The position numbers and the translations under genes were made by a program. A stretch of 64,000 nucleotides of DNA. Origin: Betaproteobacteria bacterium (GTDB taxonomy: Bacteria > Pseudomonadota > Gammaproteobacteria > Burkholderiales > Burkholderiaceae_C). The DNA is taken from positions 1-64,000 of the forward strand of contig RFYV01000008.1 in NCBI GenBank assembly GCA_009921265.1, in the 5' to 3' direction. Below, in pieces: positions 42,701-46,351 of the stretch. Within the stretch, counting starts at the first letter, position 1. Each line of letters begins with the position of its first letter. Below the pieces are notes generated by a model. It was not told the origin of the DNA and did no database searches. It was given only the letters and a program-made list of their open reading frames with translations.

Positions 42701-42720
42701 TCAAGAATGTCGTGGCGAAG

Positions 42721-42773
42721 TGCTGCGGCTACTCAAGTTGCGCGGGTTGGGCGCAGCAATGGCCGAAAGGCCA
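42721..42773 (+). promoter_or_regulatory. structured puf leader (two hairpins)
   Basis: TGCTGCG (42721-42727) pairs with CGCAGCA (42752-42758). Next, TGGCC-GAAA-GGCCA (42760-42773) forms a GNRA-capped hairpin just 7 bases before the pufB Shine-Dalgarno AAGGAG (42780-42785). Such hairpins can set mRNA stability or ribosome access. No pufQ gene occupies this place, where many alphaproteobacteria have one. Confidence 0.55.
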
Positions 42774-42793: not shown

Positions 42794-42937
42794 ATGTCAC
42801 AGCGGACATCTATATCCGGTTTGACGGACGAAGAGGCTCAGGAATTCCATGCGTTCTGGATTCAAGGAACTGTGGCTTTCACGGCAGTAGCCGTGATAGC
42901 ACACGTCTTGGTCTGGGCCTGGCGTCCCTGGTTTTAA
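42794..42937 (+). CDS. pufB: LH1 antenna beta polypeptide
   Basis: 47 residues, found by reading the sequence directly. AAGGAG precedes the ATG by 8 bases. The N-terminal [18 protein letters not shown] is the typical cytoplasmic segment, and one helix ends [13 protein letters not shown], with the bacteriochlorophyll-ligand His and the WxWRPW motif diagnostic of LH1 beta chains. It pairs with PufA in the ring around the reaction centre. A 74-codon ORF separates it from pufA instead of the usual direct pufBA order. Confidence 0.95.
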
Positions 42938-42970: not shown

Positions 42971-43195
42971 ATGTCTAATGCCAGTGAATACGATCATCAC
43001 ACTCAAATAGTTGATGAATCCCAAACTTTTGGAATTATTTTTGCACTCGGTTTTATGGTTTTTTTCTTATTTGCCTTCATTGCATCAATGCTAGGTATTA
43101 ATTGGAGAAACTATTTGCCAGGTGCCGAAAGTGCCAAAGGTTTAATTGCTGGCGTGAATGCAGCTGTTTACACCTTCATGTCACACATCACTTAG
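42971..43195 (+). CDS. unassigned single-span membrane protein between pufB and pufA
   Basis: 74 residues, with GGAG 8 bases before the ATG and a 10-base gap to pufA, so it is almost surely translated. An acidic/His-rich N-terminus (MSNASEYDHHTQIVDESQTF) precedes one helix (about 21-42, GIIFALGFMVFFLFAFIASMLG) and a C-terminal amphipathic part (NWRNYLPGAESAKGLIAGVNAAVYTFMSHIT). It is not PufB, PufA, PufQ or PufX by sequence: there is no AH-x-L-x-W antenna motif. Position and topology suggest an LH1-reaction centre accessory or assembly subunit; this is inference. Confidence 0.8.
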   Translation: MSNASEYDHHTQIVDESQTFGIIFALGFMVFFLFAFIASMLGINWRNYLPGAESAKGLIAGVNAAVYTFMSHIT

Positions 43196-43205
43196 GAGAA
43201 AAAAT

Positions 43206-43406
43206 ATGTGGCGCATTTGGAAACTGTACGACCCTTTGAGGGCGATGGTCGTTCAAGGCATTTTCTTGTTCGGGCTGGCTGCAATGATTCATCTGATCTT
43301 GCTCAGCACCAACAAGTTCAATTGGCTCGACGGCGCGAAAAAATCAGGTGCAACATCGGCGCAAAACGCACCGATGCCATCACCTGTACCTCAAGTCAAG
43401 TCTTAA
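43206..43406 (+). CDS. pufA: LH1 antenna alpha polypeptide
   Basis: 66 residues from ATG 43206 (MWRIWKLYDPLRAMVVQG), with AGGAG upstream. The helix contains the ligand His in AAMIHLILLSTNKFNWLDG, the hallmark of LH1 alpha chains. A Ser/Pro/Ala-rich C-terminal tail follows. A stable hairpin with T-run lies between it and pufL, as expected for higher expression of antenna than reaction centre. Confidence 0.95.
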   Translation: MWRIWKLYDPLRAMVVQGIFLFGLAAMIHLILLSTNKFNWLDGAKKSGATSAQNAPMPSPVPQVKS

Positions 43407-43423: not shown

Positions 43424-43465
43424 CAGATGGAGGTTCATGCCATGCAAGAGCTTCCATCTGTTTTT
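43424..43465 (+). terminator. pufA–pufL intercistronic hairpin
   Basis: CAGATGGAGGTTC (43424-43436) pairs with GAGCTTCCATCTG (43448-43460) over an 11-base loop, with two G·U pairs, followed by TTTTT. It is the position where puf operons set antenna-to-reaction-centre stoichiometry by partial termination or mRNA protection. Confidence 0.8.
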
Positions 43466-43502: not shown

Positions 43503-44327
43503 ATGGCCATGCTCAGTTTTGAAAAGAAATACCGAGTCCGAGGTGGGACATTGGTGGGTGGTGATTTATTCGATTTTTGGGTTGGCCCATTCTTTGTTGG
43601 ATTTTTTGGTGTAACGACAATCTTTTTTTCATTTCTAGGTACAGCATTGATTTTGTGGGGAGCCTCACAAGGCCCAACCTGGAATGTTTGGCAAATCAGT
43701 ATTGCGCCGCCTGATTTATCCTACGGTTTGCGTATGGCACCGTTGCTTGAAGGCGGGTTGTGGCAATTGATTACTGTTTGTGCCTTAGGCGCTTTTGTCT
43801 CATGGATGATGCGCGAGATTGAAATTTGTAGAAAACTTGGCATGGGATACCACGTTCCATTTGCGTTTGGTGTGGCGATCTTTGCTTATTTCACATTAGT
43901 GGTGATTCGTCCTGTTTTATTAGGTGCATGGGGACATGGTTTCCCATACGGTATTTTTAGTCACTTGGATTGGGTATCGAATGTGGGATACCAATATTTA
44001 CATTTTCATTACAACCCAGCGCACATGATTGCGGTGAGTTTTTTCTTTGCTACGGTGTTTGCATTGTCCTTGCATGGTGGACTTGTTTTATCAGCGACTA
44101 ATCCGCCTGCGGGTGAAGTGGTGAAAACACCTGAACACGAAGATACATTTTTTAGAGATTCAATTGGCTACTCTATTGGAACATTGGGCATTCATCGACT
44201 CGGTTTGTTTTTAGCTCTTGCTGCTGTTTTATTCAGTGCCCTGTGCATTGTGATCAGTGGTCCATTTTGGACGCGCGGTTGGCCCGAATGGTGGGGTTGG
44301 TGGCTCAACATGCCTATTTGGAAATAA
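43503..44327 (+). CDS. pufL: photosynthetic reaction centre L subunit
   Basis: 274 residues with five transmembrane helices. The L subunit binds the active cofactor branch and Q_A-side partners. The N-terminus [25 protein letters not shown] is strongly conserved. [15 protein letters not shown] carries the special-pair His region, and [16 protein letters not shown] the non-haem Fe ligand region. AGGGG precedes the ATG. pufM begins 15 bases after. Confidence 0.97.
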
Positions 44328-44342
44328 AGCGGGAGAATAACA

Positions 44343-45317
44343 ATGCAATATCAAAATATCTTCACAACGGTTCAAGCAGTTGGCCCTGTTCATCATGGGA
44401 TTGAACTCGGACACGGCAACAGTCCTCGCACTGGCGAGCCTTTGATTCAGTATTGGCTGGGTCGCATCGGTAATGCACAACTCGGACCGATTTATTTGGG
44501 CGGGTTGGGCATTGCATCGATCATGTGCTTTGTCATTGCCTTTGTCACCATTGGTATGAATATGCTGGCGTCGGTCAATTGGGATCCCATTCAATTTGTG
44601 AGACAACTTTTTTGGTTGGCATTGGAGCCGCCTGCGCCTGGATATGGCCTTAGTCTTCCACCCATGAATCAAGGGGGATGGTGGTTATTTACTGGTTTCT
44701 TTTTAACTGCATCATTATTTTTGTGGTGGGCTCGCATGTATCGACGTGCGCGTGAACTCGGACTTGGAACGCACATACCATGGGCTTTTGCTGCTGCTAT
44801 TTGGTTGTATTTGGTATTGGGTTTGTTTCGCCCGATATTAATGGGTTCATGGGGTGAGGCTGTTCCTTTTGGAATTTTCCCTCACTTGGATTGGACGGCT
44901 GCGTTTTCATTGCGTTACGGCAATCTTTTTTATAACCCGTTCCATGCCTTGTCGATTGCGTTCTTGTATGGAGCCACTTTGTTGTTTGCGATGCACGGTG
45001 CTACGATTTTGGCGGTGGGTCGTTACGGTGGCGAAAGAGAGATTGAACAAATTATCGATCGCGGAACTGCGTCAGAGCGCGCGGCCTTATTTTGGAGATG
45101 GACCATGGGCTTTAATGCAACGATGGAGTCGATTCATCGCTGGGCTTGGTGGTTTGCTGTGTTGTGTCCATTGGTGGGCGGCATCGGAATTTTATTAACA
45201 GGTACTGTGGTTGATAACTGGTATTTGTGGGCAGTCAAGCACGGTGTTGCACCGCCTTATCCAACTGTATTCCCTGAGGTCATCGATCCTGCAACATTGA
45301 CAGGAGCAAAGCCATGA
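44343..45317 (+). CDS. pufM: photosynthetic reaction centre M subunit
   Basis: 324 residues, five helices. [61 protein letters not shown] and [28 protein letters not shown] are the M-chain blocks, with the special-pair His in NPFHALS and Fe ligands toward [19 protein letters not shown] precedes the start. Its stop overlaps pufC (ATGA). Confidence 0.97.
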
Positions 45318-46351
45318 AAATTTCAAATTTACTCCTTCCTGCATTTTTAGGCGCCTTATTTTTATTAACTGGATGCGAGCGTCCACCAACTGATACCGTA
45401 CAACACGGTTTTCGTGGCACGGGTATGGTTCAAGTTTATAACCCCCGATTGCTTGCAATCAAGACTGAAGAAAACGAGGTGCCTGCATCTTTGCCCGCAG
45501 TGCCTACCGATGGACCTAAAGCAGGACAGGTTTATAAAAATGTCAAAGTATTGGGCAATTTGAGTGTGAATGAATTCACACGATTGATGTTGTCGATGAC
45601 GACATGGGTTGCGCCCAATGAAGGTTGTGCTTATTGTCACAATCTAGCTAATTTGGCAGAAGACACCAAATACACCAAAGTGGTGGCTCGTCGCATGATT
45701 GAGATGACGCGTCACATCAATGCCGATTGGAAAACGCATGTGGCTGAGACAGGTGTTACTTGTTACACCTGCCATCGCGGAAATCCTGTTCCCAATTATG
45801 TTTGGTTTAAAGAGCCCGAGCAAGACAAAGGCGCGGATTTCATTGGAGACCGCGCAGGGCAAAATTTGGCAGCGACCAGTGTTGGACTCTCATCCTTGCC
45901 AAGCGACCCCTTCACGCCATTTTTATTGGGTGAGTTGGATATTCGAGTCAATGGAAGCACCGCATTACCCAGTGGAAATCGCCATTCAATCAAACAAGCT
46001 GAGTGGACGTATGGCTTGATGACGCATATGTCATCTTCACTTGGTGTCAATTGTACGTATTGTCATAACACGCAATCTTTTTCAAGTTGGAAAGGCAGTC
46101 CACCACAACGTGCAACTGCTTGGCACGGTATTCGAATGGCGCGTGATTTAAATACCGCATATTTAGAACCATTGGCGCCTGTATTCCCACAGCACCGACT
46201 CGGTGAATTAGGTGATGCTGCAAAGGCTAATTGCGCAACCTGTCATCAAGGCGCATACAAACCACTCAACGGTCAATCGATGTTGAAAGATCACCCGCAA
46301 CTCGCAGGTCCCGGTGTGCAAACCCAAGTGGCATCTGCAAATAAAAAATAA
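45314..46351 (+). CDS. pufC: reaction-centre tetrahaem cytochrome c subunit
   Basis: A 345-residue periplasmic cytochrome that rereduces the photo-oxidised special pair. The signal sequence ends with lipobox LLTGC (Cys21), so the mature protein is a lipoprotein made by Lgt. Four CxxCH motifs are present: CAYCH, CYTCH, CTYCH and CATCH, with axial methionines in the preceding helices (for example [13 protein letters not shown]). It is coupled to pufM. Likely soluble donors are the HiPIP and the small cytochrome c encoded in this window. Confidence 0.96.

Follow-up and report, generated by a model that had tools for sequence, protein, structure and literature searches.

The puf cluster and its additional ORF

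The window (the whole stretch of 64,000 nucleotides that was analysed) holds a pufBALMC cluster, and an additional ORF sits inside it. All features of the cluster described here lie on the forward (+) strand. The first gene, pufB (42794..42937), encodes a short LH1 beta of 47 aa that carries both bacteriochlorophyll (BChl) histidines and ends in WRPWF (Pfam LHC: 43.3 bits; NCBIfam pufB_517: 80.6 bits). The ORF (42971..43195) is followed by pufA (43206..43406), which encodes an LH1 alpha of 66 aa (Pfam LHC: 47 bits; NCBIfam pufA_517: 65 bits), and then by pufL (43503..44327; Pfam Photo_RC: 321.9 bits), pufM (44343..45317; Pfam Photo_RC: 356.9 bits) and pufC (45314..46351; Pfam CytoC_RC: 486.7 bits). 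The source genome is a Burkholderiales relative of Limnohabitans. Published work is cited here from excerpts of the respective sources; in these, Limnohabitans relatives are a prominent freshwater bacterial group.

The ORF begins with an ATG at 42971, 33 nt behind the stop of pufB (42937), with a GGAG upstream, and its stop at 43195 lies 10 nt before the ATG of pufA (43206). The 74-aa product has a single hydrophobic span at about residues 20–41 (the best 19-residue segment starts at residue 20, with a mean Kyte-Doolittle value of 2.71), followed by WRNYLPGAE (45–53) and a C-terminal helix (58–73). The predicted model consists of a helix (4–41), a loop and a second helix (58–73), with a mean pLDDT of 74.8; it was built on four sequences only and is therefore weak, with unreliable first 20 residues. 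A structure comparison of this model, limited to seven chains, gave no light-harvesting match, and no Pfam, NCBIfam or PHROGs entry matched the protein up to an E-value of 1. Based on profile comparisons with controls, phmmer against the PDB and the model, we list the ORF as an ORF74-type gene for a putative His-less LH1-beta-like protein.

The slot has been described before. In Roseateles depolymerans, ORF74 (RD2015_RS05155) lies between pufB and pufA, and the excerpt of PMC10037100 gives its function as unknown. The same is said in the excerpt of PMC12817894 about ORF2 of Rubrivivax gelatinosus, which occupies the same slot without the BChl histidine of alpha; there, ORF2 was aligned with alpha polypeptides and rejected as the source of pufA2. 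Neither excerpt compares its ORF with beta or PufQ. Equating the window ORF with these two is based on position, and for ORF74 also on size (the number fits the 74 aa), not on a sequence comparison. The initial annotation had called the protein unassigned, which stands for its function and no longer for its slot.

Two RNA features flank the pufB-ORF-pufA stretch. The pufB leader contains three covarying hairpins (42709..42773) before the ribosome site. Across 24 Burkholderiales leaders, 95.6% of the cells were paired, 10 of 18 pairs had changed on both sides, and the covariation score was reached by none of 500 shuffles. These 24 leaders were chosen from 29 listed (L067, L069, L078, L079 and L108 were left out by choice) and those of L064, L066, L081, L085, L101 and L107 are outside the alignment, so that the conservation is overstated for the order. 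No Rfam family matched the hairpins. ORF1 of Rvi. gelatinosus, reported directly upstream of pufB (PMC12817894), would fall near 42709–42773.

Between pufA and pufL, there is a 13-bp stem-loop with a U-rich tail (43424..43460; fold z –3.52), which a consensus terminator scan did not list. It probably ends or stabilises an mRNA of pufB, ORF74 and pufA; a strong stem-loop with a U-rich tail at this place fits an abundant short mRNA of these three genes.

Distribution across puf operons

A match was obtained in 45 of 101 genomes (the source genome and 100 relatives). One match (G089) was dropped, as it is a His-bearing long beta (locus L087), which left 44 genomes. The initial annotation had described a well-formed ORF with its own GGAG between pufB and pufA, and this arrangement was confirmed: in 43 of the 44, the genes follow each other as pufB-ORF-pufA, and in the last one (G022) the contig starts within the ORF, which is followed by pufA. 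The order was also kept in all 33 loci returned by the searches. The nearest named loci belong to a Comamonadaceae MAG (74% identity), Limnohabitans sp. 2KL-17 (48%) and Rubrivivax albus (61% over 51 residues). Within the genus of the source genome, the ORF is present in 41 of 61 genomes; of the other 20, a single genome carries reaction-centre genes, on a contig that starts within pufL and leaves the pufB-pufA stretch out of view.

A homology and context search in other puf operons, as the initial annotation had proposed, found the ORF in 37 of 45 readable Burkholderiales operons and in none of the 54 readable operons outside the order. The draw from the order comprised 399 genomes, 48 of them with reaction-centre genes. 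Loci whose contig ends before pufB were not counted (L068, L109 and L110 of the 48 Burkholderiales; L163 of 55 loci outside). G1164 was left out, as it has the same pufL and pufM scores as G1165. Among the eight Burkholderiales operons without the ORF, three had an ORF in the PufQ position (directly upstream of pufB) together with a short pufB, and five had neither ORF and a long-tailed pufB (tail of 27–28 residues). In all 37 ORF74 operons, pufB ends one to three residues after PW.

ORF74 was never seen together with a PufQ-position ORF or a long beta in these 37 operons, of which 33 were readable to bchZ. In the other four (L083, L086, L088, L099), the contig ends 16–352 nt upstream of pufB, where a PufQ-position ORF is possible. 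PufQ-position ORFs were sought only within about 900 nt upstream of pufB.

The 54 operons outside the order comprised 21 with a PufQ-position ORF of non-Rhodobacter type (L113 at only 21 bits), nine with one of Rhodobacter type and 24 with neither; near-identical operons were unthinned. According to these counts, not all operons there have a beta tail, nor do all have a PufQ-like ORF, and the two are often found together.

A single His-bearing beta with a tail of 27–28 residues was seen in L075, L076, L081, L085 and L087 (families f11, f30 and f43). The long beta of L075 ends in PYAFMG, which closely resembles how PufQ-position ORFs end. No such ORF was found upstream in any of the five, and in the stretch of L075 no bchZ was found.

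Relationship to LH1 beta

The initial annotation had presented the protein as standing alone. This was not supported: it is a recognisable relative of LH1 beta and, more weakly, of the PufQ-position ORFs. A phmmer search of the PDB with the window protein gave 13 matches up to an E-value of 10. The first nine (7.6e-6 to 0.081) were without exception LH1 chains, under the labels beta, antenna alpha/beta or light-harvesting. The best one, 8z81_B (7.6e-6), aligned over residues 15–65 including its WRPWIPGAEG.

The profile of the ORF74 family scored 96.8 bits against that of the long betas. In the control, in which columns were shuffled within the membrane block and the flanks (40 shuffles each), the mean was 13.3 ± 3.2 bits and the maximum 21.3 bits. 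With the ORF74 profile, the part behind the membrane span alone reached 57.0 bits against beta and the part before and in the span 33.4 bits. Judged by a profile score above this composition-matched control, ORF74 and LH1 beta share common descent. An origin from LH1 alpha was rejected: its 16.0 bits lie inside the range of the shuffled control. Two homologues were also scanned with Pfam, and one of them reached 11.8 bits for LHC (PF00556; cut-off: 23) and 19 bits for NCBIfam pufB_517 (cut-off: 61), both below the cut-off.

In a tree of 90 rows (42 ORF74, 20 PufQ-position ORFs, 28 long betas), the row nearest to ORF74 belonged in 132 of 150 bootstraps to the Burkholderiales long betas, which make up four distinct rows; a PufQ-position ORF was nearest in two. 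One-clade support was 127 of 150 for ORF74, 143 for the PufQ-position ORFs and 88 for beta. With the latter figure, ORF74 may branch inside or beside beta. When short betas were included, the three groups formed separate clades.

ORF74 shares with LH1 beta, and especially with the long betas of L075, L076, L081, L085 and L087, an acidic N-terminal side, the W-R-x-W edge and the C-terminal tail. Unlike beta, it lacks the BChl-binding His0 and is a separate gene beside a His-bearing short beta. It most likely arose as a copy of a long-tailed pufB in an ancestor shared by most of the phototrophs in Burkholderiales; the duplication itself we infer.

We checked which residues were lost and which were kept in a redundancy-reduced set (120 of 180 rows left after thinning). 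In LH1 beta, BChl is ligated by His0 and His-18. His0 was present in all 58 betas and in none of the 42 ORF74 representatives, which mostly had Gln (26), Ser (5) or Thr (4) there; among the 20 PufQ-position ORFs, one had His and 19 had Arg. His-18 was found in 57 of 58 betas, two of 42 ORF74 and none of the PufQ-position ORFs. The window protein has Ser aligned with His0 and Gly with His-18. Together with its one hydrophobic span, this agrees with the earlier description of a single helix without an antenna histidine. The edge of ORF74 was well kept (W in 41 of 42, followed by R or K in 41 of 42). The tail, with the near-invariant motif PGAE...GVKAAVYTFMSH, was the most constant part, and four residues (G51, V66, Y67 and S71 in the numbering of the window protein) were invariant in all 42.

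Expression and selection

In Roseateles depolymerans, a major 1-kb transcript is reported to carry ORF74 along with pufB and pufA, and ORF74 was among the three most affected loci in the delta-SP70 mutant, with 2.34% of the TPM left (excerpt of PMC10037100). In 69 loci (one genome is counted twice, as L021 and L095), the median energies of the ribosome sites were of the same order: –6.1 for the ORF, –8.0 for pufB and –7.3 for pufA. In 37 of the 69 loci, the site of the ORF was weaker than those of both pufB and pufA.

A translation site near that of pufA in strength and, in Roseateles, an abundant shared transcript are what would be expected of a repeated extra antenna polypeptide, present near 1:1:1 with alpha and beta like LH1-gamma, which might bind carotenoid or BChl via Gln or another ligand. 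Gln at the His0 position in 26 of 42 representatives fits this too, and there is a precedent in the 11-copy gamma-like polypeptides of Rhodopila globiformis LH1 (excerpt of PMC9640540). The window protein, however, has Ser and not Gln at this position, and the position varies. We regard such a role as improbable.

Median dN/dS values in three groups of close relatives were 0.15, 0.09 and 0.17 for the ORF, compared with 0.06, 0.04 and 0.10 for pufB and 0.05, 0.04 and 0.03 for pufA (pairs of unequal length were skipped). The window ORF is real, conserved and under purifying selection. A chance ORF was ruled out by synteny and purifying selection. A decaying pufB duplicate or a translational spacer without a function as a protein would evolve faster than its neighbours, as the ORF does, and could be missing here and there, as it is in eight of the 45 readable Burkholderiales operons. 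However, dN/dS values of 0.09–0.17, the four residues invariant in 42 of 42 representatives and the retention in 37 of the 45 operons speak against it, and we consider decay very improbable.

Relationship to PufQ and the PufQ-position ORFs

The initial annotation had called the protein unlike PufQ. This applies only to the Rhodobacter-type PufQ of Pfam, to which the protein has no match up to an E-value of 1, and not to the non-Rhodobacter PufQ-position ORFs: the ORF74 family scored 58.3 bits against the latter (shuffled control: 12.4 ± 2.7), with 39.9 bits in the part before and in the membrane and 15.7 bits in the part behind it. The PufQ-position ORFs also scored 59.9 bits against the long betas (shuffled: 11.8 ± 2.9). 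Towards Rhodobacter-type PufQ, the scores were lower: 22.1 bits (28%) for the PufQ-position ORFs, with 9.4 ± 1.6 and a maximum of 13.4 in a full shuffle, and 16.8 bits (4.4%) for ORF74, where the full-column shuffle is a weaker control than the within-block shuffle. The slot and the ORF are known (ORF74, ORF2); no paper linking either to beta or to the PufQ-position ORFs was found in the literature searched, and the original Rubrivivax gelatinosus and Roseateles puf papers were beyond the reach of this search.

PufQ-position ORFs occur in Alpha- and Gammaproteobacteria and in the three Burkholderiales operons. They share with ORF74 the single span, the puf linkage, the homologous profile and the missing BChl histidine (19 of 20 lack it). 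They differ in their place upstream of pufB, in a tail like SVFGEAKAxA..PFAFM as opposed to the GVKAAVYTFMSH of ORF74, and in the W-R edge, of which W and R are present in only eight of 20 each. Six non-Rhodobacter PufQ-position ORFs were scanned with Pfam (L066, L115, L117, L119, L121 and L129), and none reached the PufQ cut-off of 22.1 bits; L119 came to 15.4 bits, and the other five had no PufQ match. They are probably missed or unnamed pufQ-like genes. In the source genome, no PufQ (PF05398) exceeded this cut-off either, the best hit being 15.5 bits on another contig.

The main rival to a lasting ring subunit is a PufQ-type factor for assembly and pigment supply, in which ORF74 would aid BChl delivery and LH1 assembly. 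In Rhodobacter, normal BChl levels depend on PufQ, which associates with ferrochelatase (excerpt of PMC5725709). The homology to PufQ-position ORFs, the absence of BChl histidines from both and of a PufQ above the cut-off from the source genome, and the lack of joint occurrence in the 45 operons (37 with ORF74, three with a PufQ-position ORF, five with neither; 33 of the 37 readable to bchZ) point in this direction. In contrast, both the total score and the tree place ORF74 nearer to beta, its stretch behind the membrane reaches 57.0 bits against beta and only 15.7 against the PufQ-position ORFs, and the latter are weakly tied to the PufQ studied experimentally in Rhodobacter (22.1 bits, 28%). 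Moreover, the gene lies between pufB and pufA, i.e. on the opposite side of pufB. On balance, a PufQ-type role appears less likely than a ring subunit but is the strongest of the alternatives.

A possible role in the light-harvesting ring

ORF74, which many freshwater phototrophs encode in this slot, looks like an antenna protein minus its chlorophyll-holding residues and probably contributes to the structure or the assembly of the light-harvesting ring. The lost His ligands make an ordinary antenna unit unlikely. Our preferred reading is that the window ORF is a pufB duplicate turned into a pigment-free, beta-like accessory subunit of RC-LH1. We give this a probability of roughly 0.55; its place in the ring we infer. 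The step from a beta-like protein to a ring-associated accessory subunit is uncertain. The initial annotation had proposed an extra core-complex subunit or an assembly factor, which is a sensible class for a genuine one-span, His-less puf product between pufB and pufA.

The operons that do without ORF74 were counted against an accessory subunit: eight in Burkholderiales, of which five have a long beta and three a PufQ-position ORF, and all 54 readable ones outside the order. Neither proteomic nor structural evidence placing the protein in the complex turned up. The pattern of 37, 3 and 5 operons fits both a ring subunit and a PufQ-like factor, because the tail of a long beta may do the same job.

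LH1 beta has its N-terminus in the cytoplasm and its tail in the periplasm. As an accessory subunit, ORF74 would be made together with LH1 and, by homology, insert in the same way as beta. Its beta-like helix and edge could pack against LH1 alpha and beta, and the constant tail, which may bind the reaction centre or PufC, could anchor the protein at one position of the core complex. There, the non-pigmented subunit might seed, cap or open the ring.

Other one-span or non-pigmented puf and core-complex products were compared. PufX is a one-span puf product of about 80 aa, whose gene directly follows pufM (excerpt of PMC9640540). The window protein is likewise a one-span puf product, but here pufC and not pufX follows pufM; PufX (PF11511) did not match the protein up to an E-value of 1, and none was above the cut-off in the genome. 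Protein-W (PufW, gene rpa4402), a non-pigmented core-complex polypeptide, has three transmembrane helices (excerpt of PMC7806223), as opposed to the one span found here. As ORF74 departs in at least one tested feature from each of pigment-binding LH1 beta, PufQ (Pfam), PufX and protein-W, it was filed as a putative beta-derived, pigment-free variant.

A broader and tentative idea, which we hold to be possible rather than probable, is that LH1 beta, ORF74 and the PufQ-position proteins (perhaps also PufQ) form one superfamily, in which antenna copies minus their BChl ligands became non-pigmented builders or gatekeepers of the same complex. If true, phototrophic Burkholderiales would have a so-far-unseen ring subunit standing in for PufX, protein-W or gamma. 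To let quinones pass, different lineages hold the LH1 ring open with PufX, protein-W or a cytochrome helix, which are unrelated to one another (excerpts of PMC10214105 and PMC7806223), and a pufB-derived pigment-free candidate would be a further means. Should the relation between beta and the PufQ-position ORFs also include Rhodobacter PufQ, it would explain where PufQ came from.

As a separate observation, two gammaproteobacterial PufQ-position ORFs, L115:609–926 and L117:517–897 (oriented), scored 37 and 46 bits with the ORF74 profile and only 14 and 15 bits with a mostly short-beta profile. The ORF of L115 has an intermediate look, with His at the His0 position of beta and WRGW.
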